From the NCBI RefSeq assembly GCF_051622035.1, contig NC_135367.1, positions 10,514,501-10,578,500 on the forward strand: 64,000 bases of DNA, written 5' to 3'. The stretch comes from Arctopsyche grandis (taxonomy: Eukaryota; Arthropoda; Insecta; Trichoptera; Hydropsychidae). Shown here one piece after another: positions 1 to 31,529 of this stretch. Below the pieces are notes generated by a model that did no database searches, was not told the DNA's origin, and saw nothing but the letters and a program-made list of their open reading frames with translations. Numbering within the stretch: position 1 is the stretch's first letter; each line of letters starts with the position of its first letter. The position numbers and the translations under genes are program-made.

Positions 1-628
1 AAGCAACTGTTGAAAATTTTCAGCAAGCGTCAAACGTCACTTATACGCATATGTGCATATGTATGTATTATAGTTGAACGTAAAACCACAAAATACGACC
101 ACTGCAAAATAATAAAAAGTCTCTTCACATTTATCGTTTTCTATGTAAATGTATGTAAACTAGATAAATTTGTATTAGTTAATCGCATCTATAATAAATA
201 CATGTTTTAGTTTATTGTCTCTCCGTTATCCGTTAACGACTTGCTCTTAATCTGCCGTTGGCGTTAATTAATTATAGCTTCTAGGTCGACGGTTCTATTT
301 CGTTCTATGACAATACGCTGTGTTGACTGCGCGAATTTTGACAACCTCTGTTCAAACTGATTTAAAATTAAAACATGCGTTATATTCACAATGTGCTGTT
401 CAACATCTTAATCATTTTGTAACAAAACACAACAGCTGAATTTTACAAATTTTTATTACTTAAGCAAATAAATAAAAACCAATATGATAAAATCACCTTT
501 AAGCATACAAATCTCTACGTATAAGAATTTTAAAATTAAATAAACAGCTTATTTTTAAGAAAAATGCTTCGATGCCAAGCAATGCCATAAGCCTTTAATA
601 AATAATTAATAGATAAAAAAAAACTTAC
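1..628. other. No gene seen (intron or flank)
   Basis: AT-rich sequence downstream, on the minus strand, of the exon at 629-693. That exon ends in a donor, so this is presumably the next intron of the same gene. I looked for a minus-strand exon able to take its phase and found none with an acceptable acceptor and an open frame. Confidence 0.5.
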
Positions 629-693
629 TGTGCAAAGCTGCTGCTCGTTCTTGTAATTCAGAAAATCGATTATCTTGACCCACCAGACCTCTC
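629..693 (-). CDS. 65-nt shared internal exon of an unrecognised minus-strand gene
   Basis: On the minus strand the segment is bounded by a good acceptor (TTTTTAATTGCAG, ending at 694) and a consensus donor (GTAAGT, 628-623). The first base completes a codon left with two bases by the upstream exon; the next 21 codons are open and read RGLVGQDNRFSELQERAAALH, a charged stretch that could start a helix or coiled coil, and one base is carried to the next exon. Joined to the 2692-5291 exon the frame continues without a break, the split codon becoming Met. The following exon lies outside the window. I do not recognise the family; the splice signals and frame continuity are seen directly, the gene assignment is inferred. 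Confidence 0.72.
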
Positions 694-2691
694 CTGCAAT
701 TAAAAAGTTAATGCAAAGAATATGAATAATAAATTTAGATTGAATTAGATATCACATACCTTAATCATTTTTTTTAAAAACTACCTATTATATACTTCAT
801 TTAATTTAATAAGACACTATGAAGAAAAATGTTCTTATGTCATTGGACCGAAAATTTCACCCAATCTACGTATGTATGTATGTATGTAAAATGGAACATA
901 GATAAAACACGACTATTAAAACGTATAATAAAAAAAAGATAACGAAAAATATATATGTGATCAGTGGAGATTACATTTCTTTCACTGTCCTGAGTAGCAG
1001 TCGAAGTCAGAAAATGTATCTACTGAAGTGTTTTGAACGGTGACTACACAACTGAGAGCATGACAAAAGATCATAAGTAAGGACCGGCCGACAAGATGCT
1101 CAACGGTTAACCATTGTCAATTTCTATTGTCAACCATTTTTTTTTGCTCTCCTGCTTTCTCGGACAATGGAGAGGTCTATTGTTATTTTATGGTGGCAAC
1201 TCGACCGCCGATCTCTAATCATAAGTATTTTCTTTGTATTACATACTATTTCAAACTTTTTGCAAGTTGTGTTTAGTGATATATACATAAGTTCACATGT
1301 CTCTGTGCGAACTTGTCGCTGTGTTCAGTTGTCAAGCCTTCAATAGTCGTGTGTTCTCTTGTCATGCGTTCAGCTATTATGGGACCGTTTTGAATTGTGT
1401 ACTGTGTTCATAAGAAATATTGGCCAATGACATGAAGATCTATTGTTCCTTCGCAAATAAAATTGAGTATACTGATTGATTCACATTTCACGTTTTTTAC
1501 GACTCACTCGCCGTAGTTTTGAAAAAAGAGAGCGTGGGTACGTTTATACCAATGCTACTATTTTGAGCTCCATTGAGAACGCAAGAAATCCAAATGCAAT
1601 AACAAACACGACATTATTTTTAAACTTAGCACGTGCTATCCCACTTGCTGCGTGTCTTCGGAAAAATTAATGTTTCATTGAAAAGATAAAAGACAAATTT
1701 CCACGGAAACAAAGACAGCAAAACTTCCACAGAGCCAAACATTTAAATTGCTAACGAATCGTCTGCGTTCTTCCACTTCTGGATATGAATAAGAAGCTTT
1801 GCACCTTTGTCTCCAAAAATAAATTTTCGACTAGAGGTCCTGTTTTTCGAATTCTTCCTCGATTTATCTTGGCAACTGACTAGAATGTATATTCTTTATT
1901 ATACATTTTTATTTTCTTAGAATGAAATATTGGTACAACGTGACTACGCTTATTTTCATCGGAATTGTTTGAAAAAATATGACTAATACACGTTGACAGA
2001 TCACCGTTTAAAATGGCGATTCGATATATTGTCATATTAACTTTGCGAAAAAGAAAGCATTTCTATTTCGCCCTTGAAGCATGCAGACCGTGAGCGTTAA
2101 TATCCAAGACCTTCAAATTCCGCAAATTTTTCTAATTTTCATCACATAATATGTTCAAGAGAGTTACACGATATTGCTCCAGGTTTCTATTCTGAACACT
2201 TTATTAATAACAAAATGGCGGCATTTTCCTTACATCATAAAGAACATAAATTCAAGCATACAAATTCAAGACGCATTTACGAATATAGACACAGAAGCGT
2301 AATTAGCGCCCCCGCAATACAACATCGAGTCCAAAGATTCAAAAACCGAAATAAAACGCACTGCAAAACTGATTGCTGCAAAAAGTGTTTTTTGATCGCT
2401 ATGTTGGTAGCACATATAACCTCCATCGCCATCTGGTGAATATCCACACCAAGTATAATATTATAACAATATCTACCAGAAATCAACATTGCGAATTAAT
2501 TCACAAATATACACGTGTTGAAACTGAAGAGAGGCAAAACATTAAAATAGAATCGCAGTTTATTAAAGTTTATAAACATACCAAATACCCATCAAAGTGA
2601 AAGATGAAAACATTGGAAATGCCAAAGCAGTATGACGTATAAGCAGTTGCCAAACGAAATAGTATGTATGTAAACGCTTCACAATACTTAC
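694..2691. other. Intron of the minus-strand gene
   Basis: Two kilobases between the 5.3-kb exon's donor and the 65-nt exon. It holds no convincing exon. About 1065-1225 carries one decayed unit of the repeat keyed by TACTCATAAC that is arrayed at 49.8-50.6 kb (here GATCATAAGTAAGG, a poly-T run before GCTCTC, then AATCATAAG). CATATGTATGTA-type short repeats are present. Confidence 0.55.
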
Positions 2692-5291
2692 ATTTGCTTC
2701 TCCAGCACCAGCAAAAGTTCAGTATACGCCGACTCTTCTTCTTTCTCACTATTGCGGAAACAGTCATATATTTGAGTCACTTTCTTTTCATTATCTTCAT
2801 CGTTCGTACATCTGTCACACGGCATTATCACTTCACAATCCTGAATTACGTCGTCTTCACTTGTCGAAACGTCACTACTCGAACACTCAATTTCTTTCAA
2901 CAACTCTTCCTTTCCTTCTTCATATTCTTCTTCGTCTTCTTCTTCTTCCTCCTCCTCCTCTTCTTCGGTTTCCTCATCATCTTCATCTTCTACAACATCT
3001 TTAGCTATATCTTTAATTTCTTGTTTGATTTCTAATTTAATTTCTTCTTTAACTTCTTCTTTTATTTCTTCTTCTTCATCCTCTTCTTCTTCCTCTTCCA
3101 CTTCCTCTTCGAAAGATTCCGAATCTTCACTTTCTTCTTCAGTTTTCTTTTCAACTACCACAACATTTTCACTGTCTTCAGTCCTACACACAACCTCACA
3201 TTCTTCAATCGGTTTATCACTCAATTCCTTTGCAATATCATTATGTTCAATCACACAAATATCGCTAATGTCCGAATCACTCCCTTTCTCGAAACCGGCA
3301 TTTTCATCATTTTCCACATCCAACTCTTCTATCAGTATAGCATTTGCTATGCTGTCGAGAGAATTATCCCTTTTGACCGAAGACGAATGCAGAGTAATAC
3401 TAGTCCTTTTGAATTTGTCTTCTAGTGAATCTTCTTCAGAACTGCTCGTATCTACAAACTCCACAATCTCACCGTGGTTCTCCTCTTCCGATTCCGGATT
3501 CTCATCATTCTCGACTTCAATTTGAAACACACTACTTTCTTCACTTTCTTCTTCGTCCAAAGAAGCGAAAGATTCATCATCTTCCACGGCATCGTCTTCT
3601 ACTCTACCACCATCATCGAATTCGATGAAGTTGTGAAACGTTACGTGCTTTTTAAAACTTGAAGATGCCTCGATTGGTTTTTCCTCTTTTAAAATATTCT
3701 TTGGCTTGATATCAACGGCACTTTCTTTTTTTTCAACGACGCCATTCAAAGAATACCCTTGCGAGACCTTTGCAATTGCTTCTTCTTTCTTTTCAACGAT
3801 ACCATTCAAGGTATACCCTTGCGAAACTTTTGCAATAGTTTCTTCTTTATTTTCTAACTTGATTTCCAAGTTAAGTGAACCTTTAACTATTGGTTCATTC
3901 TCTTGCGACGAAGAGACTAGTTCATAAGTGGTTATTGTTTGGGTAGCCATTTTCTTTTCGTCTATATGGTTCCCAATATCACTAACACTAACAAAACCAG
4001 AGACTTTTTCCGGCGAGTGGTTCAGCACTGATATCGTCTCTTTGACAGGATATGGTATATCTTCTGCTTTGATTCGAACTGGTTCACTCTTAGTTCCATT
4101 TTCTTGATTTTTACCATTTTGTTTGCTATCAGAAGTTCCCATTTGCTTATTGTCCTCCGGTTCGTCAGATTCTTCGACGATCTTCAAAACACCATCGTAA
4201 CAGTTCACAAATTCAGTATCACTGTCTGCTGCCGCGTCGTCTGTGTTTTGATAAATGTCACTCAAATCTTCAGCGTTCGCTTCTTTGAATTCACATGTTG
4301 CTCGGTTGGACGGAGCCGGGTCTCGGACGTTTGTTTGCTCTTGTTCTCTGTCAGTTTCTACCGATGTTGTTCTTCTATCAGGGTCGTCTACTGGGTCGGA
4401 GATGCAGCATGTCTGCTGGGGTCGTTTGGTATCGCGTTTCGCGCCACACTGATGATCCTCAACTCCAAAATACCACCTGCCTCCTTCTCCAATCTCGTCT
4501 TTGGCACACTTCCCGCCGGTTGACGTCAGCGGTTCGACTTCTTCTTCAGCTCTTTCACTCTCTACGCTGAAGACCTGCTCGCCCACCACACTTTTCAGAA
4601 ATTCAGTTGGCTCATCGATCAAGTCCACGGTGGCTGACCTTGGTACGTCAAGTTCATCAGTCAGTGTATCGTTGTTGTTCTTCTCATTGAAACCTTTCAA
4701 ATCGTCCAGAGCGTCTTCGTAAACATCCCCAATGTTAGAAAACACATTTGAAGATATGTAATTCAGGTTTTTATCCGAGCCTTCGCTGATCACTGACCTT
4801 CTATCAATTGGATTTTCATCCCGCTTCTGTCTATTGGCTCCGAAGGACCAACTCCTACTATTCTTCTTTTTCTCACCCTTGTTTCGCTTTTTACCTCTAC
4901 CCATTATGTCTAGCAGATTCTGAACTCCAGACAAGTAAGACGTGTCCTTTTTGTACTTGACGCTATCTTCTGGCAGCAGTAAATTGATGACTTCCTTGCT
5001 CGTCTTTGAATCCCTTCTGACGACACTATTCCTGTTAGAATTTTCCGTCGATTTTTCTTCGCCACTATCGTAGGTCGATAAGGGACGATGGTTCGGTTCG
5101 AGGGTCGTTTTTTGATCGTCGGTGATCGTCTGCTGTTTCCGCTGACTATTCCTGTCTTCATTGTAGTTCTGTGTCTGTGAAACACTGTCGAGACTGTTGT
5201 TCGTTTTTTGATCTCGCAGCGAGCCCTTCTTAGCGTCTCCATCGCCATCTAACGTCTGTTTAGTGGACTTCCGTCTGAAAAAACTGAACAT
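2692..5291 (-). CDS. Large acidic low-complexity first coding exon
   Basis: A 2.6-kb open frame of about 866 residues from an ATG at 5291-5289 (MFSFFRRKSTKQ). A formal TAA lies inside the donor: CAAAT then GTAAGT at 2691-2686, so this is an exon rather than a whole gene. Roughly residues 1-165 are basic and Ser/Asn-rich with a Lys/Arg cluster (GRGKKRNKGEKKK). The centre is acidic. A near-perfect tandem repeat of about 24 residues carries the core KVSQGYxLNGxVEKKE. The last 200 residues contain long Glu/Asp runs, encoded by a TCT/TTC-rich tract on the plus strand at 2920-3110. The end (ESAYTELLLVLEKQ) is helix-like and leads into the shared exon. No signal peptide, membrane segment or catalytic motif is visible. 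I do not recognise it; a disordered cytoskeletal or scaffold protein is possible but unproven. Confidence 0.8.
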
Positions 5292-5503
5292 TCTACAGAA
5301 TTCGGCTCAGTTTCAACGCGTGTCGATCTACTTCATATCACAGTAAAATACACTAAATAAATTTATTCACTTTAAATGCAGCTCTAGTTTATCAGTCAGT
5401 CTTGTATTTTTAAATGCAACCGGTTATAGATAAATTCTATTGATTTTTCACATATTTTAGCTGAAATTAAATCATGAAAATTATATTCGCTGATATTACT
5501 TAC

Positions 5504-5535
5504 CAAGCAAACAGATTCAGAGCACATGAGCTCAT
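5504..5535 (-). CDS. Candidate short alternative first coding exon (MSSCALNLFA)
   Basis: On the minus strand an ATG directly preceded by an in-frame TAA opens ten codons ending TTGCTTG at a strong donor, GTAAGT (5503-5498). It leaves two bases over (phase 2), the phase required by the exon at 693-629; joining would give Trp then RGLVGQ. It lies just upstream of the large acidic exon. So short a peptide proves nothing by itself; the support is the donor strength and matching phase. It could equally be a chance donor. Confidence 0.3.
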
Positions 5536-7309
5536 TTATTTTTAACGCGACACTTTGAGAAGTTGTGATGTCACAATGCAGAACCAAAATACGCACAAAG
5601 AAACCCTTTGTTTTACTACGCATATCAAATGTTTCAAGAATAAAAAAATCAAACAGTGATTTCAACATTACATATGATGCTTTTTATAATCAATAATATT
5701 GACTCTTCGTTGTGGAAAATCGTACTCAATCATGTTACAATCAACAGTCATATATATATTGTAGAAACGTGATTCACATCTGTAGGTAAACAGTAGATAA
5801 AACCGAGCTCAAATACTGTCGACCTGAATACAAAATTAAGTAATGAACCTGATATTTTTATGACTTCTCTGTTTCAAACACTTATCACTTCGCAGTGTTT
5901 ACCCACATTTTGTGGGGAAATTGTGTCATCGATATAACGAGCGCTATTTTCATCGAAACTGTACAGACTTTACGTAAAACTCAAAGTGAATCTTCACAGG
6001 ATATAATTATCATCAGCAATGGTTGTTGTTGCTGGCTGTTGCTTCAGGCACGAGAGGGTTATGAATTACGACTTTGGCGTGACTTCAAATCAAAGCGCCA
6101 CAAATCATCCTAATTGACCGTTGCTTTTTTAGCGAGAAATTCACTAATTGATTAATTAATCGACTATTTACTAATCAATTGACCGTCGCTTGCTATCAAA
6201 TTGCCATTAGATGCATCACATTGTTGCGAACTCATTGTTTTCCTTTAAGACTTCAATTTATTTTAATGCGCAACCGTCTTGTGTTTTTCAGTGACTCGTT
6301 CCTTTCTTTTCTTTACACATGTGGACCGGTTTCACTATTGTTCGTGTTTATTTTTCAGCTTCGTCTTTGTTCTGAAGTTGTTCGCCATTTGATAAGTTGA
6401 GGTCGCCAACTCCGTACCAACCTGTTGTGTATATTAATTTGCGTCTCTTTATGTACATATATATATGTACATAAAATATAAACAAATGTGACGTATTTTT
6501 TCTATTGTTCATTAATGGAGCTGTGTTTTTACTTCTATTTCAGATAATCCATTTTTCAAAGACGAAACTGATGAAAGCAAACTTTATTTCGAGAATATAG
6601 CATACAAAAATGCTATTTAGATTCACGCTGATGTTCTTTGCTTACGTCAGAGATTCTTAAACTCCTTTTGTCTCAATCGCAGACCAAAGTAAATCTTCTA
6701 CTTTTAGTTTTATGTGACGTTGACCTGCTGTTTTTAAATGATCATTTCTAGATTGCATAAGACAACCATAAATTTCATAAACAAGAAAAAATACGACGCG
6801 GAAAAAAATTATTTGAAAACCATATATTATATATAGATAAATAATAGCTTCTTCTGAAATCCCCATACATTTTTCTGAAACATGTACCCCAATGCGCTCT
6901 TTCTATACTTGTTTGCCTGTTTATTCATATCTTTGCTGATTTTGTAAAATCCAAAAAGTTTGGCGAACATATTTTTAAATAAAATCAATCAAGTAACAAT
7001 ATTTCATCATCGTTCAAATTTTTTTTACTAATTTTTATATAGCCGCAAAGTAGCTTACCAGTTAAGCAATCATTTACTAGTGAAAAGGTCGAAAAATTGA
7101 TTCGATTTTCTCGATGATTACGAGAATGTCTATCGCTGCTGGCGTGATCTGCTTGGTTATTAAATCCAGATAGACCGCCTCTTGTTAGAGTTTGTCATTT
7201 TATCTAACTTAATTGTTGTGACGGATACAATACAATTGGCATTCCCTCCCTTTCTTTGTTGATTGTTGCCAGTATACAAATGCTTGCGGTTTGTAATGAA
7301 TATCCATAC
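5536..7309. other. No gene seen
   Basis: AT-rich intronic DNA upstream of the acidic exon. Short open frames occur on both strands but none has a splice-bounded or family-like translation. A short TATATATATGTACATA palindromic microsatellite lies near 6460. Confidence 0.5.
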
Positions 7310-7985
7310 CTACATTGTGATTCACGGTCATTTTATCGTATCCGTTTTATCGTGGACATTTCACCGTGTGTTTTTTCACCACGAGGACATTTCACCGTGT
7401 GAAATTTTCACTGTGCAGACATTTTACCGCGTGGTATTTTGTCTATACATATACATACATATACTATGTACAATGCTGCGAATTTTGGTATAACCGAGTA
7501 CGGGTCCACCTTACGGCACAAACTCTAAGTTGATGAAGACTGGTAAAATGAACTCGAAAAAAATGAAATTGTACCAAAGCATTAAGATTAGGAGTGGGGG
7601 TAGACAGCTTACGGAACAAATACGCGTGTATGCGTGAGATTTATGGTAGGAGCCGACGAAACCATCTACTCCCACTTCTAATCTTAATGCATAGGTACGA
7701 GTTCATTTTTCGAGTCTTCATCAAATACGAGTTTATGCCGTAAGGGCCACCGCTGAGTACAACTACATATATATAAACATGAACATATACTATTTTTTTC
7801 AATAAAACGCAATGAATTTTTCTCACGAAATATTGCCTACATGGTAAAATGTCCGCACGGTGAAAAGTCCCACGGTAAAAAGGTCCCGCGGTGAAATGGC
7901 CTCATGTTGAAAAGGACGCGCGGTGGAATGTCGGCACGGTAAAAAGGTCGCACGGTAAGACGAATACGTAAAATTTTCGGACACG
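7310..7985. repeat. Composite foldback element with nested inverted arms
   Basis: Outer arms (about 7326-7440 and 7840-7975) are inverted copies built from a degenerate short unit around CACGGTGAAATGTCC, repeated several times per arm. Inner arms (about 7500-7610 and 7650-7752) form a second inverted pair containing TTGATGAAGAC, AAAATGAACTCG and GCATTAAGATTAG. The organisation, long terminal inverted repeats themselves made of short tandem units, recalls Foldback-type elements. An isolated arm-like piece (CATTTTACCGTGTCC) occurs near 11014. No transposase is visible. Confidence 0.6.
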
Positions 7986-8001
7986 CTACATTGTATAATA
8001 G

Positions 8002-8386
8002 TGTTACGTACGCCGCGGATTGAGCGAATTGCACTTAGACCAACGGATATCTGTTATCGGATTAACTAAGAGCATGCACTTACTTCCAAGGATAATATCT
8101 GGACTCTAAGTGCATTTAGGCTAAACAATGACCGTTATTAGTTATTTCTCAGAATCGGTACGGGGAGACCCAATGTCGTGGAAATACATATCCGAATACG
8201 TGACTATACAACAGGTAAACAGATTAGGCGTCCTGAGAGATCTACTCTTTATAAGGCGGTACGTAGGCGATATCATGTCATTCTGGACTGAGCAGTGACA
8301 GTGCGTGTATCTCCTTAATCATCAATAAATGCTGTGATACGACTGTTGGCCTTTTACTTGGATCCTCCACCCACCCCTACGCAACA
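8002..8386 (+). mobile_element. Solo LTR
   Basis: Starts TGTTACGTA and ends TACGCAACA, giving short inverted termini, and is flanked by a 4-bp direct repeat ATAG (7998-8001 and 8387-8390). An AATAAATGCTGTG segment near the 3' end is the likely polyadenylation signal. There is no internal region, so this is a solo LTR left by recombination, or a very small LTR element. A second copy, with its own duplication, is at 45811-46204. Confidence 0.75.
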
Positions 8387-8390
8387 ATAG

Positions 8391-9500
8391 GTTTTGGTTA
8401 TGAACACAGATATCTATAGTGTCGATTTAGTGTGACTATGGCATAAACATATGTACATAAATATCAAATATAACTAAGTACCACTAATGAGGAAGTGATT
8501 TTGATAAAATTATTTTTTCAAATAAGAAGACTCGGTCTTATATAAAATGACCCCAAAAAATAAATGGTATTAGTGAAATGTAATATTGAAGAATGAGGGT
8601 AGAAATTTGTATTTAAATAAAAAAATCATGAAATTCCTCATCTGAAATAATTTGAGTTAATTCAACGTAATATATTACGACCCGTAAATAACACAGTGCT
8701 TGTTTTCGTGTAAAACTTAATATACTGCGATATCATCGAATGCTTTCGAGGCCATAAATGTTGGAACAGTATTCGGTCAGTGGATTGAAAGCCGCAATTA
8801 CAATCTGGAATTCCGGGACGGGAATCACATGTGGCCATCGAGAATCCAACAGGAACACAAGTGCTTCTCTGTTCTCAATCACTCGAGTAGGGTGAGCCCG
8901 CTTTCCGCTTTCACACGGGACATAGCAAAAAAAATCCACATACATATGTATGTATCTACGAAATTAATATTTTTGAAATGTCATAATTTCAAAGTTCCGG
9001 TCCAACTCGAGTGATAAATGTCGTCTGCGAAGGCGCTCGACTCTTTTTTCCCAGAAAGATAATTATGTAGAACATCTTTCCGGGGAAAAACTACTACTAC
9101 TTCTTATCCCAATTTTCAAAATGTCTCGTCTAGAACGCGAACACGTCTTCCGGTGATGCGAGGTTTAAATATAATTTATTAGTGTGACTGTGCTTTCATC
9201 GGCGGCCCGGCAAGTCGACAGTGCGGGGGTGTTATGAGTTTTATTTATCGTTATTATGACTCGTTGGTTAAATGGTCAACGACCAATGCGAGTGAGCAAG
9301 CCGTCAGTCACGTCAACCCAGATTTGAATGACGTTGACCTGAGCTTTGATATATCAATTTGAAAATTTGCGAATTCACTATTATTTGTGTGATTCAAATA
9401 ATCAACTTTGCGAAAGAAAATTTCCGTTCGAAAATTTCTATGATAAATGTATTTAGATTTGTCTCTCAGTATGTATGTATTTAGATTTGTCTCTCAGTAT
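8391..9500. other. No gene seen
   Basis: AT-rich unique-looking sequence between the solo LTR and a LINE fragment. Open frames near 8733-9014 overlap on both strands and have no recognisable content. A duplicated phrase (TATTTAGATTTGTCTCTCAGTAT) occurs near 9449-9500. Confidence 0.45.
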
Positions 9501-9504
9501 CTAT

Positions 9505-9849
9505 AGGCGTATGCTGAAGATTCCGTGGACCAAAAAGATATCAAACGAAGCTGTCCTCGGCATGATGGGGAGAGGCAGGGAACTTGTTTCTGTCATCAAG
9601 CGGAGAAAGATGGAGTACCTCGGACACATGATACGGGGTCCAAAATACGAATTTCTCCGTTTGATAACCATGGGGAAAATAGAAGGAAAAAAATGGATTG
9701 GCAGGAAAAAGTTATCTTGGCTTCGAAACATGCGCATGTGGACCGATATGAGCGCCGAAGATCTGTTCCGAGCCGCTGAAGACCGATGCGGATATATTCA
9801 AATAATCGACGAGGTGGTCGCCAACGTCCGGATGCGGACAAGGCATTAA
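9505..9849 (+). pseudogene. LINE endonuclease/reverse transcriptase C-terminal fragment
   Basis: The plus-strand frame reads RRMLKIPWTKKISNEAVLG, then IKRRKMEYLGHMIRGPKY, GKIEGKKWIGRKKLSWLRN and a Trp/Asp-rich tail. This order (RMLKIxWTxxxxNEEVL, KRRKLEYLGHxxRGxKY, GKIEGKRxxGRxxxSWL) is the usual C-terminus of insect non-LTR reverse transcriptase polyproteins. Only about 110 residues remain and no palm domain or endonuclease is present nearby, so it is a 5'-truncated dead copy. Confidence 0.85.
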
Positions 9850-10194
9850 CAAGAAGAAGAATGTAGTTTAAATATAAATTATTGGAATGAGCTAGGTATG
9901 ATCCAAAAGAAACGTTTAACTGCGAAAGATAAACAATCTGTTTTCCGAAGTTAATTTGCAATTTTACTGATAGTTTTTGTACAACTCAGATGATCAACAT
10001 TGTATAGTGCGTAATGCGTATTGCCCAGAGACCTGGTCTGATTTGTGCTCATTGCTATGGGCCATAAATTTTGCCGCAGTGGCATACATTTATTAAACAA
10101 TTATTTTCCAAAACTATTCCTTAGATTTTAACCGGTGAATCACTAATTCATTAAATTGCCGAATTCTTGACATATTCTAAACGACATGAACAAA

Positions 10195-10356
10195 AATTGA
10201 CGGGCTGAAAACCATACTGGTACAAGTGAAATTTAAAAAAAAAGCTGGTTTAAGTGCTAAAATAATAGCATTTCATATATACTATTATTTTAGCACTTAA
10301 ACCAGATTTTTTTTTAAAATGTCACTTTTACCAGTCTGGTTTTCAGCCCGTCAATT
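10195..10356. repeat. Near-perfect palindromic MITE (hairpin)
   Basis: Inverted arms start with AATTGACGGGCTGAAAACCA on the left and the reverse complement on the right, run for about 70 bases with few mismatches (CTGGTTTAAGTGCTAAAATAATA in both arms) and leave a centre of about 15 bases near 10275. No open frame. The superfamily is uncertain because the target duplication cannot be separated from the palindrome. Confidence 0.8.
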
Positions 10357-11688
10357 ATATGTATTTATTAAAATAATAAAAATAAAACAGATATTTGCTA
10401 GATACAATATAGATATATACCTATATGTACTTCTTATGAGTAAATCCCGCCAAATCTTCTGCCCTTTCAAGAAGAACAATGAATAGTGGAAGGGGGGAAA
10501 GGGTCGAAGAATATTTGTATTATTAAGATTCAAAAATAAACTATTTCATGATAACATGACTTCGACGAAACATTCGATTTTTTTAGCAGGATATGAGGTC
10601 TAAATTCTTTTAGTCGAAGAACAATCTTTGCATAGCCGATAGGATAAAAGTTGGAAATAATCACTTCAAAAAGACTTCGACCTATTCTAAAACTCGTTTA
10701 CAGTTAAAGTTAGGATACCATTAAGTCATGTTCCCCAACAAAACGGTCTTTCAGACTGTATTCTTTGGGGGATGTTGGCCTCATGCTGAGGGTTTTATAG
10801 GTTACATCCATTGACCTTAAATAATAAATCTGCCATAAAATTAGATTAAAAAAGATAATTTTGTGTATACCTATACATATGTATAATATAAATTAGTAAA
10901 AAATGAAATTGTTTCAAATTTGAATAAAATAAAATAAATGATAATTATTTTACATAAATATTGAAAAAATATCAACACATGCACCAAATTTGTTTTGGTT
11001 GGTTTTTGTAACATTTTACCGTGTCCATTAAATCGTGCGGTCGCCCCAGTGACGGGAATGCAATAGTAAAGCTCTCGACTGCGAATTTACGTCACACGGA
11101 CGTCACTGGCGTCTGACTGAATTCGAATTTAACATTTTGTACGCAATAAAGTGGATTTGTTATATTAGAAAGTGATTTTTTCGAGCCAACGCTAAAGTTG
11201 AGCTTCCTGTTTTTCTCGCGGGAAAATTTCCTTACGTGTCACCCCAAAGCGAATATGATAAATTGATTCAAAGTGTCGAAGCATATCCGCTCGATGTAAT
11301 TTACAACGGCAACGAAAGGGTTATATATGTATACGTATATAATAAATTTCGTGTTAAATGTTTGACGATAGTTAACCGCCAGAACGACATCCGTAATTGA
11401 CTTTTATTTAGTTTTAACTTAAACCATATGGCACACAGTCTGTAGAAAACTTAGGATATTTGTTTACAAACAGAAAAAAAATTAACGTTCACAGCTTCCG
11501 TCACCAAGACGGTTAATTTCCAGATGGTGATTTTTCTTAATTGATGTTTTTTTTTTGGACTTTCGTTCTATTAACGGCCATTTCGTTATATTATGCAACG
11601 TTTATATGAAAAACTTTCAGTATACATATGTATAATCACTCGACACTCAGTATAAGAGATGTTTAATCATGTCATGCCACGGTATTTT
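10357..11688. other. No gene seen
   Basis: AT-rich intronic sequence. One arm-like piece of the CACGGT foldback family is near 11014-11042, and a moderately GC-richer stretch lies at 11040-11130. No splice-bounded open frame was found. Confidence 0.45.
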
Positions 11689-11689
11689 T

Positions 11690-11880
11690 CATGTGTAAAA
11701 AAACGCTAGCACGCCTACATAGTCTATACAGTTACGATCCAGGTCAAAGCTCACCCCCTGGAGTGTTGGTTTGATAGTGATCGATAACAGTGTTTCCCAT
11801 ATTTGAAGAAATATAGGAGAAAATTGCCGAAATAATAAGATCGTACAAATTATCAATGACATGAGGATACGCCCATCACA
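11690..11880. repeat. Dispersed repeat shared with 60.05-60.24 kb
   Basis: The segment with TCACCCCCTGGAGTGTT, GTGATCGATAACAG and CCCATATTTGAAGAAAT recurs, diverged, at about 60050-60240 (CATCCCTGGAGTATTTT, GTGATCGACAACGG, CCCATATTTGAAGAAAT) in the same orientation. Family unknown; no coding content. Confidence 0.6.
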
Positions 11881-12449
11881 GCTGTAAACTACGAGCAAGT
11901 TCCATGCCGCACGATTCAGTGTGGTTTTATCATAAATCGACACTACGGCTAACAGTGTACATATGAAGTACACATGAAGTAATTTAGGTATACAGATGTT
12001 GATTATAAACGCAAACATATGGATGCTTGCCACAATCAACGAAATCCGACAAGCTGGTTTGAGAGAGGGAAGAAGTGCTGATTTTATTGGAACCGTCACA
12101 AAAATTAACGTAGATAAATTGGCAAATTCTAATAGAGGACGGTCGGTCTGGATTTAACAACTATCCAGATCTTGCCACAAGTTTCAAATATGCATATGTA
12201 CTTGAAAAAATAGAATAAACTTTTCGATTCCGGCTAGGATTTGAACCCATGACCCACCTAATGGAAAATAATTGCATAATGAGCTATGATGTATCGATTT
12301 AAAAGCGAATAGAATTTTTCTTTTATTTTGCGATTGGTTTTTAGGAAAAATCAGTCAAAATAGCATAAAATACAATCCTTATACCAGAAATCTTATTAAT
12401 GTATGAACAAGTTGAAAATATTCTTATTTTTTATGGGCCCTACGATATG

Positions 12450-12560
12450 GACGAGTTTGGGTAGCCATCCTATGAGTTGTGAACGATTCGACCATCTTGG
12501 TAGCTACCACTTTCCTTCCTTCCCGAGCGTCACACTCAATGGTAAACAGACAATTCCACA
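12450..12560. repeat. Short dispersed repeat shared (inverted) with 54.73-54.84 kb
   Basis: CGATTCGACCATCTTGG followed by a TACCACTTTCCTTCC block and GTCACACT is matched in inverse orientation near 54750-54825 (CGATTCGACCATGTTGG, TACTTTACTTCCTTTCC, GTCACATT). About 70 bases align. No coding potential was recognised; probably an old transposon fragment. Confidence 0.45.
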
Positions 12561-12830
12561 AATGACAATTCCGACACGACAATCGCGAATACGAAATATC
12601 TGGCACTCGAATTTTCGTAAGTGTGATAGTTCGCGTGACTGACTCTCGGTGGGTGGAATTTTCAACTGCCAAATATTCAATGATTGAGATTTTAGTGACG
12701 TGTGCGATAAGCACCATATGTGAAATAGTCACCGAAATATATTAATTTCATTTCATTCCTTTCGTCCCCATATATTATTAAAAAGTATTACATTTTGTAT
12801 CAAACGCATTTTTTTGGTATATGTAGTAGA

Positions 12831-13262
12831 AGCATAGAATAGCTCGGACGTTAAGCTTCTGCTTACCGTCAAGAAGGTGCCGGGTTCTATCCCTGAATGA
12901 AAATGAATTTTTCAGAGTATGCTGTTGGTCAGACCTGGATTTGTGACTCCAGGTTGATCGTTTCCTATCAGAGTTTGCCAATTTTCTCTGATTTCATTGT
13001 TGAAACGGTTCCCGGAAAAAAAAATTGGCTAAAAATCCTTCCTACCTCCTATGTCACCACTATTTGAAAAATTTGATTGATGTACAATAAAAATTTATGT
13101 ACAATTCATAGATGTCTCGATAATTTGCGAGTTTTTTCAGTGTCTCGCAATTCAACGACTTATAATAAAAATGCTGTATTTGTATTTGTAATTGGCCAGG
13201 AAGGCGCATTGGGATTTACCTGTAAGGCCTTCCTGGTATATATGTAAAAATAAAATAAAATA
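12831..13262 (+). mobile_element. tRNA-derived SINE, plus orientation
   Basis: The head resembles a tRNA gene, with an A-box-like AATAGCTCGGACG and a B-box-like GGGTTCTATCCC about 45 bases later. The body has TGCTGTTGGTCAGACCTGG, CCAGGTTGATCGTTTCC, GAAACGGTTCCC and GTGTCTCGCAATTCA. The tail is GGCCTTCCTGGTATATATG then A-rich. At least four related copies are in the window (20991+, 26745-, 44785-, 62585-). Confidence 0.85.
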
Positions 13263-17500
<4,238 letters not shown>

Positions 17501-17812
17501 TGGATATATGTATGTATATCGAATCCATCACAACACTGTACAGATACGCGTCACGGATCGGAAAAGCGGAAAAGCCGGAAAATTCACAATGGTTGTATGT
17601 GTGTAGTGAGCGCGCAACAGTAGATGGCGGCGCGGCGGCTGGCGTGCGACTGCCGGTGGCTCTATTTGTGTCTCCGCGGATACGAACAGACTATACACAC
17701 TGCAGTCTGTCCACACTGCAACGGGGTGCATTCGATGCACCAGGGCGCAAAACAAAAACAAAACAAAACAAAACGACGCGCCGGCTATAAGCGATAATGT
17801 CAACGCACTCAC

Positions 17813-17871
17813 CCTGCACCAGGCTGCAAGTGATTGTCGTCGAACCAGAGGGTCGTACGATCATTTTTCAT
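17813..17871 (-). CDS. Candidate alternative first coding exon (MKNDRTTLWF...)
   Basis: On the minus strand an ATG at 17871-17869, preceded three codons earlier by an in-frame TGA, opens 19 codons (MKNDRTTLWFDDNHLQPGA) ending at a consensus donor (GTGCAGG then GTGAGT). Two bases are left over (phase 2), matching the acceptor exon at 693. The surroundings (17540-17880) are GC- and CpG-rich compared with flanks, as expected of a promoter. I infer an alternative promoter of the acidic-protein gene; it could be the first exon of another gene. The peptide is not recognised. Confidence 0.42.
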
Positions 17872-17872
17872 T

Positions 17873-17880
17873 TGACGTCA
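17873..17880. promoter_or_regulatory. Perfect CRE palindrome TGACGTCA
   Basis: The 8-bp CREB/ATF consensus lies immediately upstream of the candidate ATG at 17871, on the edge of a CpG-rich stretch (17540-17880). The motif is seen directly; regulatory function is inference, and the position so close to the start codon would place it in the 5' leader unless transcription starts nearby. Confidence 0.35.
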
Positions 17881-18191
17881 ACTACATCTAAGCATGAGGG
17901 TACATTGTATATGTGTACATATATGTAGATTGATACAAGTAGTATCATACCGGACAACATTCATAAAAACTTTGAATTTGCAGCGTTCACTGACGGAACA
18001 TTTCACTAGGTGAAAAATTAAAATGAATATAAAAACAAACGCAATCTTTATTAGTGTAAAAAAACCAATTTCAGATTTGAAAGTCACATCTGGAGATTGT
18101 CTGAAATGGCAATCGGAAATAAAATATTTAGGAATAACATTCAATAGAGGCGGAGAAATGCAAGGCGATACGTGGTATGTCTTCAATATAG

Positions 18192-18733
18192 CCAATTACA
18201 CTGTTCGACACTAAAAATGTTTCAGAGACGAGATATGACTTTTCTTATAGATCTATGCCCAGTGAACATGAATCTGGTAATAAAAAAGGTTGATTGGCTC
18301 GAGATTCGAAGATATATGTATGTGTTTTTTAAATCGCGCGATTTTTCTATATCTTGGTGTTGTTCGGTCGATGTCTCAAAATCTGTTAATTTCCTGTTCA
18401 AAATGAATATTTAAATCTATAGTCGGGTATTTTATCTTTCATTTATAGTACTTTTCAGCTTTCAAATCTCTCAAAGTAGTCGTCCAGTTCAAATCAAAAG
18501 TCAAAAGTACGTATTTTCACTTGGGATTTTTTCCCACTGTTAATACTATTTTATATTGAGTTTTTTCTATTGAAACATGTTTATTTGGATAGTGTTCTGG
18601 CCACACTTTTTTGTTTGTGTGCTGAATTTTAAATCGGTAAAATTTCGAGCTAAAATCTCGTACTAGTATTTACTTGTATTTACACGAATCTGAATTGAAT
18701 TAATGGGGATAATATATTAAATTGTCTTTATAT
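18192..18733. repeat. Mariner-linked repeat, copy 1 (interrupted by a SINE)
   Basis: From ATTACACTGTTCGACA onward this sequence is closely repeated at 44072-44750 in the same orientation, with about 90 percent identity by eye. Copy 1 continues after an inserted SINE (18734-19230) with ATGAGAATTAAATAAAATTC and then runs into the mariner transposase remnant, so the repeat is probably the non-coding part of a mariner-like element. Confidence 0.75.
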
Positions 18734-19230
18734 TAGCCAGCAGTTTGGCTTAATGGTAGCGTATATATTTAGCACCACTGAGAACAATGGTTCGAGTCGT
18801 CAAAGTGCTGGTTAGATTTGGGGGCTTTGTGATTTCAAATCGATCGTTTCTCTATAAGAGCCAATTTTATCTGATCATTGTTGAAACGGTTCCTGAAAAT
18901 TGGTAATAGATCATTTCCTGTTGTCACAAATCTGTGTGTTTAATTTGTAGAAATTATGCACAGTAATCTGAAATCTATAGACATCTCTATAATTTCGTGT
19001 TTATTATGTTTATAAAAATTGTAATAATAATTGTGCACAAAATCTAAAATAATCCATAGATGTCTCTATGATTATTATTTCTGTACTTCATTAATTATTA
19101 TATTATATGTATTCTGATTGTATTCTACATATGTATTGTTGTATTCTGACCGTTATCGTATACTCGTCGCATTGGAGCGATCTGTAATGACGAGTATTGA
19201 TTGTAATAAATAAAATAAAAATAAAATAAA
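18734..19230 (+). mobile_element. tRNA-derived SINE, divergent subfamily, with visible empty site
   Basis: The head contains AGTTTGGCTTAATGGTAGCG (A-box-like) and ATGGTTCGAGTCG (B-box-like), followed by GATCGTTTCTCTATAAGAGCC and GAAACGGTTCCTG as in the other SINEs, and an A-rich TAAATAAAATAAAA tail. The paralogous repeat at 44.6 kb reads straight through this point (TTGTCTTCATATGAGAATT), so the insertion limits are defined by comparison to within the short repeated TATAT. Confidence 0.8.
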
Positions 19231-19257
19231 ATATGAGAATTAAATAAAATTCCACTT

Positions 19258-19640
19258 AGAAAAGTCATATTTCGACTTGTGGATTAATAACAAAAATTCT
19301 ATTGATAACTGGCTTAACTCGATAAAATAAACGAATTTTTGTCCATAAAATTAAAGTCCAATATTGGACCACTTTTTCGAACAGCTGGGGCCGTATATCA
19401 GCAATAACGCGGCAAATTTTGGCTTCCAAGTCATCCATTGTCTCTGGTTTATTGATGTAGACTAGCGACTTCACATATCCCCACGGAAAATAATCCAAGC
19501 TGTTAAATCACATGATCTCGGAAGCCGATTCACAGGTCCATTACGAGAAATTATGCGCTCATCGAATGTTTCCTTCAATAAATTAATTGTGGCCACGATT
19601 TTCGAAATAAATTTGCAGGCATCATTCTGGCATAAATCCA
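19258..19640 (-). pseudogene. Mariner transposase C-terminal remnant
   Basis: The minus strand encodes ATINLLKETFDERIISRNGP, VNRLPRSCDLTA and then, after a one-base frameshift near 19500, LDYFPWGYVKSLVYINKPET and DDLEAKICRVIADIRPQLFE. This is the known end of insect mariner transposases (RTFGxRxISRNxPVNWPPRSCDLTPLDYFLWGYVKS). The frameshift and loss of the catalytic core show it is dead. Confidence 0.88.
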
Positions 19641-20594
19641 CTTATAGTTAAATGGCAAACCAAATTAAGTACAAATCGGCCGTCAAATTTCAAATTGGCT
19701 ATTACTAGAAAAAATGTTGTTGATTTGAAAAACAAACCTCTAAAAACAACATTCTATACATACATAAAATGTGCTATGAACATTTATAAGAATTGTATTA
19801 GTAATAATTAACTTGGTTACTTAGTCGGTTCATAGTATATTAAAGTTATGCTTTAAAAATTACACTAAACTTATGTTAATTGCCGTAATAAAGAGACACA
19901 TCCACACGCACAGAAAGAGTGCACACAGAGTGTGTGCGTTGTGTCTCCGTGTTTCTCTGTGAGTGCCTTGTGTCTTCGTGAATACTATGTGTCTCATTGT
20001 GTCTTATATACATATTTCCGTGTGTTTGTTCGCTAGTTTTACATTCAGAATTACATCGAAGATTTCCACAATAGACGACTCGTAATATTTTAACGATGTG
20101 AGTAAATTTTAGAATTGTTTTAAATCAGTTTCACCCCCCCCCCCTCTTTTTAATAACAATATTAAGTAAATATTGAACTAACACGTTTCGTATTAGATCT
20201 GTATACTATGCTATATCTTTCGCATATGTACCTACATATATATGTATGAGTATCAGCAGCGTGATTTTATCAGGATTCATCAGTCTTTCTTATCCTTTTG
20301 AAGTATTAACGAAATCCAGGAATATTGAAAAATAGACTGAAGAAAATCATAAGAATTGTGCGTGAAATTATATTGAGAACATTCGACACGTTTCCATGTA
20401 AACATTGATTTTTCTGTTGTATGATATATTATACATGTCAAAGAAAAAAAGAGAGTATAATATTTTACATATACATACATATATAAGGATTATTAAAAGC
20501 CCCAGGACGCCTACTGAAAAGGTCTTCCGATGATAATCCCTTCAATCGTTGACGTATTTATATACATATGTACTTGTTATTTGCCTGGTATAAA

Positions 20595-21783
20595 CAGAGA
20601 AATGTTACAATAATAGAAGTGGCTATAGGCGTTACATATATACATATATATTGTTGTCAAGTGAAGATTGTCCACATACATTCCTAAATAATTTTAGCAT
20701 CAGTCGTATTTGATGGGCAAGTGCATCGTTAAAAATTGCACTATACATTCAAAAAGACACAATAAACAACATGGGATACATTTTTATAAGTAAATTGATC
20801 ATTTAAGTAACATATTATTCAATTAACATCGTAGTTTGATGGTTTTTAAAAGTGTCATGGCGATCGCCCGCATTCTACATAACATTTCAGGGGTGGCACC
20901 GGAGAAATGTAAAAAATATTTTTAAATAAATGTTACAACATTTCTCTTGGTGGCGCCGAATACTCAATTACATTATATTATAGAAAGTAACATAGCTAGG
21001 TCGTTAAGTTTCGGCTTAGCGTCGAGAGGCGCCGGGTTCGATCCCTTGAGCTGACCTCGATTGAAAAGAATTTATATCTGTAGTGCTGCTGGTCAGACCT
21101 GGATATTTGTGACTCCAGGTCGATCGTTTCCTATCAGAGTTTGCCAATTTTCTCTGATTTCATTGTTGAAACGGTTCCCTGTAAAATTGGCTAAATACCC
21201 TCCCTACCTACTATGTCACCACTATTTGAGATTGATTAATGTACAATAACATTTATATACAATTCATAGATGTCTCGTTAATTTGCGAGTTTTTCAGTGT
21301 CTCGTAATTCAGTGACTTGTATAATCAAGAAAATGCTGCAATGTTTGTAATTGGCCAGGAAGGTGCATTGGGGTTACCTATAAGGCCTTCCTGGTATATA
21401 TGTAAAAAATAAATAAATAAATATTAATAACCAATTATTTAAGTTTGATTAATAATATTAACATCGTTCATTTTATATTATACATATTTTTGTTGAAACT
21501 ATACATTACACGTTAATTTAAGAGTTCCCAAGGATAGACAAATACAAAAAAGTGAATAAAAATAATCCGCCAACTGAGAAAAGAAACGGATTGGCCACCA
21601 ACGCCCAACACCACCAAATTGTAAATAAATCTATATTAAAATAAAACTTAAATTTCTGTAGTGAATATGTGATGACCTTGATTGTATTCCATGCGTTTTA
21701 GCGTAGTTATGGAGACGTGCCGCGTAATATTGACACAATTTATTTATTCGTAAAGGCACTTCTATTATTATAACATTTCTCTG
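20595..21783. mobile_element. hAT-type MITE split by later insertions
   Basis: The left part (20595-20800, starting CAGAGAAATGTTACAATAATAG) and right part (about 21677-21783, ending TTATAACATTTCTCTG) together reconstruct the element seen intact at 38219-38580 and 45394-45753; the break falls between TTGATC and GATTGTATTCC of the intact copies. The intervening 0.87 kb contains a SINE and unrelated DNA. Flanks are GGTATAAA and GGTATGCT, an eroded 8-bp target duplication. Confidence 0.75.
20991..21420 (+). mobile_element. tRNA-derived SINE, plus orientation
   Basis: The best-preserved head in the window: CATAGCTAGGTCGTTAAG (A-box region) and GCCGGGTTCGATCCC (B-box). The body includes CTGGTCAGACCTGGATATTT, GTTGAAACGGTTCCC and GTGTCTCGTAATTCAGTGAC, with GGCCTTCCTGGTATATATG and an A-rich AAATAAATAAAT tail. 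It sits inside the interrupted hAT MITE. Confidence 0.87.
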
Positions 21784-22399
21784 GGTATGCTCAAAAGTCC
21801 TTCAAATTCAAATTGTGAGATTTTCAATATAACAATATGTCATTTGTCGTTCAAAATGATCAATATAATAAAACTGTTGGTAGATTTTATATATATTATA
21901 CAATATATACATATGTCTGTACATCGTACTCATAATACTTAATTTGATTTATATGATTTACGTGATAGTAAACAAGAACAGATTGTTTTGTTGCTATGCA
22001 AAGTTTATTCACCGGTTTGATCGATTCAATGTGATACAAAGTCAAATCATAATGCAATAAAATTCGAATCATTTGCAAAGTGGTGTAACTGAATAATGTA
22101 ACGAGACGTTGAACCTATGCATATATTTTGAGACGAACGGTTTGCATCAATTGAAATGCGGCCAAATCAATTTTCGTCAAAGTAACTGAGTAGGTATGAC
22201 CAATCATAAGATGACCAGACGTCCCTGATTGGGCGGGACAGTCCCGGATTTGAATAGTGAGTTCCGTATTGAAAAGTATCCTGGATTGGATTGATGTAAC
22301 CATTTTCGAACATGAAATACTTATTTTTTGAATTTGGATTTTCGTATTGCATTTTTGCTAAACCTATTTTTAAATACTTTAATTTAACGTTGCAATGTC

Positions 22400-22590
22400 A
22401 CTCATTTCTGTTTTCCAGTTCCCGTTTCCGTTCCCGTTTCCGTTCCCGTTTTTGAGCGATTTTTTTTACAGAAACCATCGTGGGCATACACACAATAACT
22501 CATGTAAATTTCATCACAATCGGTTAAATAGTATAGGAACGCAGGTGTGACAGACAGACAAACATTGATTTTTATATTAGTACTGTTTTT
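22400..22590 (-). mobile_element. Helitron-like terminal segment
   Basis: Contains a CCCGTTTCCGTT tandem stretch, TTTTTTTTACAGAAACC, ATACACACAATAA, AATCGGTTAAATAGTATAGG and ACAGACAGACAAACATTGAT followed by TTTTATAT. The module read on the minus strand (TATATAAAAATCAATGTTTG, TGTCTGTC) is a common 5' end of insect Helitrons. A second copy is at 27190-27395. No Rep/helicase is present. Confidence 0.55.
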
Positions 22591-23599
22591 ACTAATACTT
22601 AGTAATAACACTGATCAACAAAAAATGACGTTTTTACTTATCGGAGCAAAGTTTAATCAATACTAACTAAATTTGACCCACTAAATTCGAATATGACAAT
22701 GATTTTTGCTGGCTTTTTCTCGTTTGTGAGATATAAGCGTTTACATAAATGCTCAATTTTTGCTAATTTTTGGATTTTGCTGCCTTTAATTAAAAATCTA
22801 GTATTGCTATGCCAAAAGTGAGTATTGGAACCAATAGTCAGATGTTTTTTCTATTGATTGGGATTATTTATTGATTTAAAATACTTTTCAATCTCGATAT
22901 TTTTTATCTGGAAGTACTAATTCGAGTGGCAAATGATAAAAATGGCAAAGTATGAAAAAAAGCCAAAATTTTTCCTTAATAGTGATCGTAAGTGAAAGTA
23001 AGAAGAGGTTAGTAAATAGTAATATTCACGCTTTTATTTTCAGATTATTTCTCGTGATTTTTCATATTTGTTATTAATATTATTGTTTATATATTGCTAA
23101 TTTATATACGTATATACTCGTGGTCTGTAATACGTTTACTCTTATTTTTGGAGATCTGGACATATCGTATGAAAAGAAGTGATAACGATTTGTGAATTAA
23201 GTCAAACAGAGATATTGTTTTTGAAACTGAAAATTGGATTTCCGCCACTTTCAAATATAACGGCTCATATGTGTGTAGATCTAACGATGGTAAACGTATT
23301 TTCTTTTATTTATAGCTTCGTTATTTCGTATCCTAAAATAGCGCCAGTCACCAAAGCAATCTCATCACTCCTTGAGCGAAGGCTAGTGACAGTTCTGAGC
23401 GAGAAGAAATTAGGCCTTATCTCAAATTTTTGCTTTGCTAAAGTTTGTTGTGTTATTTTTGTGAAAATTACTATTAAATTCTTCAAAAAGGATCATTGTC
23501 GTGAAGACTTCTAATTGCTTCAGTTGTAACAGTTAGTGGTAATAAAAAAATCGATTCCAATTTATGTCCCAAGTTGAATATCGCAAAATTTATGTTGGA
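22591..23599. other. No gene seen
   Basis: AT-rich. A 111-codon plus-strand open frame (23179-23514) has no recognisable motif, no splice context and low-complexity hydrophobic content, so I do not call it. Confidence 0.45.
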
Positions 23600-23835
23600 A
23601 AAGCTGCAAATTTGTCACCTCTTCTTCTTGTTCCCTCCACACTACCAACAACGATTTGGCTCACAATTTACCTCTCCTCTCTCGACACGTGTCCAAATAA
23701 GTTGAAAAAATCACTAGCAACGACAAATTGCATCTTTGACCTTTCATCTTCACAAGTCTGTTCAGATACGCGCAATATACTGTTGACTTTCAAACTGAAA
23801 GTTTCAGAGTTCGCCTTTTGCGATGTTTTCATACA
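23600..23835 (-). pseudogene. Reverse transcriptase (LINE) C-terminal remnant
   Basis: The minus strand reads SKMQFVVASDFFNLFGHVSR and, in another frame, SQIVVGSVEGTRRRG. The pair FGHVxRxxxxxLEKxVVxGxVEGxRxRGR is a typical tail of insect LINE polyproteins. At least one frameshift separates the halves and there is an in-frame stop, so it is inactive. Confidence 0.55.
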
Positions 23836-24149
23836 CGTGTTTTAAGATGAACGCAAAAATATTGATTGGTCGATGAAAAATATTCGTGTCACGTGCAAAT
23901 CATAGCACGTGTTAACTTTTACGTGTTATTCTCCAAACATTCAGAGACGGAATCTAATTTGTCTCGCATTAGTATTGATTATACCAAAATTAAAATGCGT
24001 GTATTCTTTTAAATTGCACACAACCCAAAGAGCTTCAGCTCCTCGAGAGTTCTTAAAAGTAAACGTAATACAGATTCCTCTGGGTTTTTTTTATTTAAAA
24101 TGTATTTTTTTAAACATCTACTTTTTTAATTGAAAGTTATATTATTACA

Positions 24150-24305
24150 AGAGGTAGGATAGTCACAGTGCTATCCATTGTTGCATTGTTGTAAATCCTT
24201 TGTAAAAAAGGTTCGGCAAACCTTTAACAATGCATTTACAACATTTGAACAATACGCGGCACCTTCTGGGTCCGGTGACTAATTATTACTAGTGTTGTAC
24301 CCGAT
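24150..24305 (-). repeat. Single inverted unit of the TACTCATAAC repeat family
   Basis: GAGGTAGGATAGTCACAGTG followed by CTATCCATTGTT, AACCTTTAACAATGCATTTA and CAATACGCGGCACC is, in inverse orientation, the same text as 49.99-50.09 kb (CACTGTGACTATCCTACCTC). It shows the family is dispersed as single units as well as arrayed. Confidence 0.75.
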
Positions 24306-24789
24306 GACATATCATAGCATGGGTGTTAGAATATTAAGTTATTAAATAAAAAAAAAATAAAAGAATCGATCCCCACGCGTTTGAATTTTTTTCGAATACC
24401 TTTTAAATATATTTAATTAAATATTTATATTTAATTATTTAATATGAACAAAAAATTGATAAAAAACTATCTACCTACCTATGTACATATAAACAATATA
24501 AGTCACCGATAACAAAATTCATTCATTCATTAATTAATTAAATACATTTTCAATAGATGGCGGTAAATTTTCTGACAAACGGAAACATTGGTAGGAAAGA
24601 GTATATACGAAAGTTTTTTCTTTTGTTAATGTATTCGTATATGCATACGTTTTGGCAGAGGTTTAGCTGTGACACACATACATATGTATGCTGAATTGAA
24701 ACGAATATTATAGAACGGAAATTTTACGAATGCAAGGGATGTGTATAGTAAATGAAGAACAGTTGAATTTTTTAGTTATAAATTATCAT

Positions 24790-25085
24790 CATTTACACTT
24801 TTACAGCCTATTTTCATTCGTCTCTGCTTTACGCAACTTTCATCCATCTCACATCACATATTTTTATGACTTTGTCTACCCATCTTCCTTGCGACCTTCC
24901 TTTCACCCTTTAACGTTCTCTTGGGGGCCAATCTAGCACTTCCATTGACCACCTTTCGTCCATTTTTCTAGCTACGTGACCCGGTCATTGCCATTTGACT
25001 TTCTTCACTACATCCATACTCTCACCCACGTATTCCGTTTCCTATCTCTTCGTTATGGCGATCATACAGTGTTTCATACTCCTTT
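24790..25085 (-). pseudogene. Reverse transcriptase (LINE) C-terminal remnant
   Basis: The minus strand, with frameshifts and stops, encodes KKVKWQ, GHVARKMDERWSMEVLDW and PPRE, then KMGRQSHKNM-like sequence. This matches the known LINE tail RIKWxWAGHVARMxDxRWTxxVLEWxPRE. No intact frame remains. Confidence 0.72.
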
Positions 25086-25143
25086 GAACGCATTATAAAT
25101 ACAATAATAATATATCATATTTTAAATGATATATCATTATAAA

Positions 25144-25374
25144 CAGTGGCGGCTCGTGCATTGCAACTGCGGCGCTGCAGCACCCCCAGAAAAATTACAA
25201 AATATCGCATTTACAACTTGTATTTAGATATATTTGACATACTCATTAATAATGATTATGTCAAATATCTAATCATTCTTATTTAAATTATATTCACATG
25301 TTGTAAATGTATACAAATGTGATTTTTTTTGGGGGTGCTGCAGCGCCGCAGTTTCTATGCACGAGTCGCCACTG
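25144..25374. mobile_element. hAT MITE with perfect 8-bp target duplication
   Basis: Terminal inverted repeats CAGTGGCGGCTCGTGCAT (left) and ATGCACGAGTCGCCACTG (right) differ at one or two bases, with an inner GCGGCGCTGCAGCACCCCC also inverted. The direct repeat ATTATAAA flanks both sides (25136-25143 and 25375-25382). CAGTGGCG-type ends and 8-bp duplications define the hAT superfamily. 231 bp, non-coding. Confidence 0.92.
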
Positions 25375-25837
25375 ATTATAAATATAATAATATAGCATTT
25401 AACATATACAAAAATAAGATATAGCATTATAAATATAATAATAATATATCATATTTTAAATGATGCAATATTTTACATGTGAACTATGTATGATAAGCCG
25501 AATAAAAATTTAAGTATGCACAAAGAAACGAGTAAAAATTCGTTAAACAAATAACACAATCATAATTTCATTATATGTGTACATATAATAGATTAAATAT
25601 TTGAATAAAAATATTTTATATTAGAATAAAATTCAAAAACATTTACGTGTGTATTAAAAAGACCTTATCAATAGAGTACATACCAATTTTGAAATTCCAA
25701 CTTAATATATATGTAAGTATTTGTTTTCAAATTTGATTTAAACGAAAACAAAATCAGCCATACTCAGTCATAATACGTACGTGGATATAATTTGCGATTG
25801 GAATTTTATATGATACAATTGCACAGAATCAACTCAC

Positions 25838-26010
25838 CAATAGCCGAAGAAGCTGGCCAGGTCCTGATAGTCGAAGGGTCTTTGCAAGTTAGGTTCCTCA
25901 GCTATTCCACTGTCGACGTCTTCGCCTTCGGAAGACGACGTCGAAGAAGAAGCATCGTCGTCCGCCGCCATCTTGTTCATCTCTTCGACATTTTCACTTT
26001 CCACTTCCAT
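25838..26010 (-). CDS. Acidic first coding exon (MEVESEN...)
   Basis: From an ATG at 26010-26008 the minus strand codes 57 residues rich in Glu, Asp and Ser (MEVESENVEEMNKMAADDD, SSSTSSSEGEDVDSG, then RPFDYQDLASFFGY) and stops at a consensus donor (CTATTG then GTGAGT). Two bases remain (phase 2). GC content and codon pattern stand out from the surrounding AT-rich DNA, so I regard it as real coding sequence. A second in-frame Met (MAADDD) could be the start. Nothing downstream on this strand before 17.9 kb looks like its next exon; its phase fits the exon at 693. I do not recognise the protein. Confidence 0.65.
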
Positions 26011-30865: not shown

Positions 30866-31529
30866 TTAGATCAAACTGGCACTTATTTTCATAAATACTT
30901 TAATTTTCTAATTTATAAACCATTTCGAATTTTTCGTATATAATAAAATATTTTTTTGCACAATTTCCTCTTTTTGTACTTCTCAGTTGGCAACCTTATT
31001 ATTATTATTATTTTTTTTTTTTTTATATCGCCACCCTTTAATATTTTTAATATTTTAATTCCTGAATCGGTCACTGATCCCGAATAACATTACAATTTTT
31101 TTCCAGTTTTGTTAGAACAATTTAACAGTTTGTTATACCGAAATTTGACTACATAAAATATATTTATTAGAATAAATGCTAGCAAATTGATATTTTATAC
31201 TGAATTTTTTCAATAAATAATATACGACATCTAAATTTTTACTACCGAGGCTTCCTATTTGTACAAGCTTTTAATTTTAGATAGATCATCCAATGAAAAA
31301 ATCAATTGAATAATTGAAAATATAATCCGACTCTGTCTCAGTCCGTTCAAGACATTTTTTACGAGATTGAATCTATGAGTATATATACATTAGATATTCA
31401 TCTTTATGATACGTACGTACTTGTATATCTAATCGTATTTGGAATTATCACGGTTGAAGCATATTGATTCAGTTGTATCGTGGCTTTGGACGAATAGTGT
31501 CGAGCTTTGAAAAAGCTATTTTGAATATC

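Follow-up and report, generated by a model that had tools for sequence, protein, structure and literature searches.

On the minus strand of the window, the whole stretch of 64,000 nucleotides of Arctopsyche grandis DNA that was analysed, we find what is probably a gene in which two putative promoters would place two different N-termini on one shared downstream region, while the shorter first exons proposed for it would be chance matches or non-coding. According to this model, built from sequence, the two alternative first coding exons would lie about 20.7 kb apart: a distal promoter near 26.0-26.2 kb would give transcripts with a 57-residue acidic N-terminus, and a second promoter, within the first intron at about 5.3-6.5 kb, would give transcripts whose N-terminus has 866 residues and is acidic and probably disordered. 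From their phase-2 donors, the two exons would both splice to the exon at 693-629, the start of a shared coiled-coil-like region some 600 residues long, which would close with either of two possible phase-2 last exons. The two promoters, and the use of both junctions, are what we infer from the features below.

25838-26010, minus strand: candidate distal first coding exon, 57 codons plus TG, acidic; ends at GTGAGT, phase 2 being the only open phase
17813-17871, minus strand: proposed 59-nt first exon; unsupported as coding, codon score 0.06
8084-8115, minus strand: like segment absent from the original list, 32 nt; phase 2, GTAAGT, codon score -0.20
5504-5535, minus strand: proposed first exon, 32 nt; unsupported, codon score 0.10 over 10 codons
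2692-5291, minus strand: candidate proximal first coding exon, 866 codons plus AT, acidic; ends at GTAAGT, joined ORF open
629-693, minus strand: exon of 65 nt common to both forms (RGLVGQDNRFSELQERAAALH); entry phase 2, exit phase 1, with AG and GTAAGT borders
About 1325 of L009 and about 9750 of L010 (DNA beyond the window), minus strand: two candidate alternative last exons of the gene, phase 2

Judged from its sequence, the minus-strand gene with its shared downstream region looks real. It was traced through 11 more exons on the same strand past the window, where 120 kb were read. Together with 693-629 they form a shared region of 12 exons, 1,797 nt and 599 codons, which has no stop when entered in phase 2, whereas entry in either of the other phases meets 53 or 35; the borders of the 11 downstream exons were set by eye at frame-keeping AG/GT pairs, so that the frame agreement was in part a criterion. 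The original prediction that exon 693-629 needs exactly one base, i.e., is entered in phase 2, was borne out, since the 11 downstream exons require this phase. Its acceptor ranks 13th among the 1232 AG sites in 560-26010, when scored with a matrix built from the other 11 acceptors; the codon score of this exon is circular, as it was contained in the training set. Two last exons fit the gene, both in phase 2, the short one ending in PYQQQKKWKL and the longer one in QKRRKN, and the exon at 5291-2692 joined to the shared exons gives an uninterrupted frame of 1,476 or 1,556 codons.

By eye, the shared region of about 600 residues appears coiled-coil-like. The Pfam scan of its 690-residue version, which includes the longer last exon, returned no family at E 0.1, and the search of solved structures returned a single non-significant match, CtIP/RBBP8 (E 0.75). 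A collection of bacterial and archaeal genomes, searched with the first 323 residues, produced 147 pattern matches and no relative. On the minus strand, Pfam found no family in two of the three frames of window positions 1-13201; in all three frames of the 10 kb downstream it gave two matches, both under their cut-offs. Klarsicht/nesprin, tomosyn and several centrosomal proteins were considered as candidates, and the general Pfam and solved-structure searches gave none of them.

The two long candidate exons are separated from the remaining ones by their coding character. To train the codon model, the shared exons were combined with downstream open frames judged to be probable coding (nine for the scoring of segments, eight for the scan of the two strands), while the 866-codon exon was left out. 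Both strands were scanned, and the only minus-strand stretches with a summed score of at least 20 in 694-39,000 were 2694-5306 (321) and 25852-26007 (31), although a model trained partly on charged protein may favour acidic segments. The 866-codon exon scores 0.36 bits per codon. The 57-codon segment scores 0.51, a value reached by none of 67 null segments (best 0.15). These were stretches of 57 codons, open from an ATG, in regions of the window assumed to be non-coding, and some of this DNA had also fed the non-coding model. Coding score was the sole ground on which the two segments were chosen; each terminates precisely in G/TRAGT, as do 6 of the 342 ATG-initiated ORFs of at least 50 codons when they are counted in and 4 of 340 when they are not; for both to do so by chance would be an event of about 1 in 7,000, if the two are independent. 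As far as the sequence goes, the 866- and 57-codon first exons have coding character and borders that keep the frame, and both fit the shared acceptor in phase, as alternative first coding exons would. The alternative N-termini that had been proposed for the shared region thus stood for the 866- and 57-residue versions, but not for the segments at 17.9 and 5.5 kb. The description of the N-termini as acidic and unrelated likewise applies to the two long ones: D and E make up 28% of the 57-residue N-terminus and 27% of the 866-residue one, where they reach 62% in residues 721-780, and BLASTP found no similarity between the two (E 0.88).

Pfam recognised no family in the 866-residue part at E 1, and by eye this acidic N-terminus is probably disordered. 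Its sequence includes a single RVxF-like motif (KHVTF, residue 548), which we take to be of the type tied to the docking of protein phosphatase 1. The last 1,009 bases of the exon were searched against the animal's own genome (an assembly of 475.7 Mb in 189 contigs) and matched themselves and seven other places, over 62-87 bases at 77-82% identity; these matches to the acidic repeat part look compositional. Searches with 5292-6000 and with 25700-26200 each matched the query itself alone. In the same assembly, seven contig ends were sampled for TTAGG, a repeat linked with arthropods: five carried hundreds of tandem units, and the remaining two about 80 copies that were mostly scattered, a picture that fits an insect.

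Both long segments can also be read as complete ORFs, of 867 and 58 codons, that stop inside their donors, and two other explanations follow from this. The 866-residue ORF could be a separate intronless gene of 867 codons, the coiled-coil-like gene starting only at the distal 57-codon exon; the ORF is complete by itself, and its stop is followed, some 125 nt on, by an AATAAA at 2564. However, that stop (2690-2688) falls exactly inside the GTAAGT donor, a coincidence seen with GTRAGT in just the 4 of 340 other long ORFs mentioned above, and the acceptor at 693 is in phase with the 866-codon exon. A heptad pattern could, weakly, run on over the junction (L-7, L-4, M0, L3), and AATAAA has a background of about 1.6 per kb in the intron 25837-5292, all of which makes a separate gene unlikely.

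The reverse arrangement, in which only the 866-codon exon itself starts the shared region, would make the 57-codon segment a stand-alone small ORF, a part of another transcript, or an exon joined to the big exon upstream of it or inside it. The segment is indeed a complete 58-codon ORF, 25 kb from the shared exon. Five of the 12 best acceptor-like sites in the big exon fit the phase of the distal donor; those at 5274, 4347 and 3603 lead to a stop at once, while at 5283 and 4476 the distal exon could be joined to the big one with the frame open to its end. These last two sites are weak, however, with scores of 4.9 and 4.8, while none of the 12 accepted acceptors scores less than 5.5. Against a separate segment are also its strong coding score and GTGAGT end, the absence of AATAAA for 1.7 kb after it, and the lack of a minus-strand stretch of comparable score between 25,837 and 5,307 to take the distal donor. 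We regard this second explanation as improbable too, and keep to two first coding exons that would share the acceptor at 693.

The common phase of the candidates says less than it seems. Four segments had been described as ATG-initiated, open and ending at GTGAGT or GTAAGT with two bases left over, which is correct (173, 59, 32 and 2600 nt from the distal one on). The list was right in its coordinates but not complete, for it missed the segment of the same kind at 8115-8084. All four are readable in phase 2, as stated, but the donor at 17813 is open also in phase 1 (52 nt), and that at 5504 also closes a longer open segment in phase 0 (165 nt); the phase of these two segments was therefore chosen, since each donor has a second open phase. 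The estimate that the phases would agree once in 27 trials does not hold. An exon that reaches GTRAGT in phase 2 reads xxG-TAA or xxG-TGA, so that any ORF observed to terminate at this kind of donor is in phase 2 by construction; indeed, among the GTRAGT sites on both strands of 184 kb, phase 2 met an instant stop at 160 of 160, against 0 of 160 for phases 0 and 1. The shared phase 2 is thus mostly a matter of ascertainment. The corresponding rule is described for the yeast Yarrowia, whose introns give an in-frame stop in phase 2 when they begin with GTGAGT or GTAAGT (PMC2911113); in the same way, every ORF that ends at GTAAGT or GTGAGT looks like phase 2 here. In the Yarrowia account the stop is discussed with the nonsense-mediated decay of retained introns (PMC2911113), whereas here it explains a bias of reading. 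The trap is a general one: where ORFs run into GTAAGT or GTGAGT, agreement in their phase is no evidence of shared splicing.

The number of such segments was compared with chance. The minus strand of 694-26100 holds eight GTRAGT sites, five of them with an ATG-open segment, and all five are readable in phase 2; by phase, the eight donors are open in phase 0 at one, in phase 1 at two and in phase 2 at five. When 300 sequences were simulated with neighbour frequencies kept as in the real one, an open phase-2 segment was present at 24% of the donors, and at least three, four and five open phase-2 segments of 30 nt or more occurred in 46, 13 and 5 of the 300 sequences, respectively, the real count being five. 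With five or more of eight donors open in phase 2 at a chance of 0.024, the real sequence exceeds the simulation, which speaks for all four proposed exons being real coding first exons, as does the fit of each to phase 2. The excess vanishes, however, when the two supported exons are set aside (three or more of six, 0.16). Moreover, ATG-initiated ORFs of at least 10 codons that end in G/TRAGT occur anyway at 1.3-2.4 per 25.4 kb per strand, as counted in four strand-stretches that include the present ones. The 17.8-kb segment has further points in its favour, as its region is CpG-rich (26 CpG per 300 bp at 17.6-17.9 kb, the 99th percentile of the window) and its donor is the best of the five candidates (8.2); the surroundings of 5504-5535 have 7 CpG per 300 and a GC content of 0.31. 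Donor strength was dropped as a means of telling supported from unsupported candidates, since the scores overlap: 5.0 at 25838 and 5.5 at 2692, versus 8.2 at 17813, 5.3 at 5504 and 7.0 at 8084.

The two short proposed segments are thus not supported as coding first exons, with coding scores near zero, a second phase open and a number near that expected by chance, and it is very improbable that all four proposed exons are real. The segment at 8115-8084 is taken as a chance match. Those at 17.9 and 5.5 kb are most likely chance as well, or at best non-coding first exons; given its richness in CpG, a non-coding first exon at 17.6-17.9 kb is possible.

Other elements were seen in the same DNA. A repeat at 17920-18100, which stops some 50-65 bp upstream of the 17813-17871 segment, is presumably part of a reverse transcriptase, judging by its motif; the genome contains at least 26 other copies of it. 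On the plus strand, open frames match V-ATPase subunit e (Pfam ATP_synt_H) at 31458-31661 (E 0.0082, under the cut-off), 34124-34402 (3e-6) and 37055-37489 (8.1e-9), and are probably exons of tandem copies. The minus-strand open frames at 39300-43360 carry motifs by which we presume them to be SERAC1 exons; Pfam gave no credible match in the two frames of this region that were scanned. The stretch 60561-60779 is a GC-rich tandem repeat with a unit of 15 or 30 bp and has several frames open on both strands.

The arrangement of alternative first exons is ordinary in kind and well known. Dystrophin genes combine promoters inside the gene with alternative first exons (PMC1790709), and, as proposed for the gene here, several first exons, some of them intragenic, provide differing N-termini for one C-terminal region (PMC1790709). 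Unlike dystrophin, the shared region found here is without spectrin, WW, EF-hand and ZZ domains, as judged from the Pfam scan at E 0.1 reported above, and an identity with dystrophin was dropped on this ground.

If both first exons are used, the isoforms may differ in the binding partners of their N-termini. A more far-reaching and improbable proposal is that, in a coiled-coil protein belonging to none of the recognised families, a promoter switch would add or remove the 866-residue acidic module with its possible docking motif for protein phosphatase 1 (KHVTF, 548), and that the CpG-rich region at 17.8 kb would serve as a third start, giving a form with neither N-terminus, through a non-coding first exon and translation from the first shared methionine. 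The preferred reading, with two putative promoters and one shared region, would provide a usable model of a gene unrecognised by Pfam.
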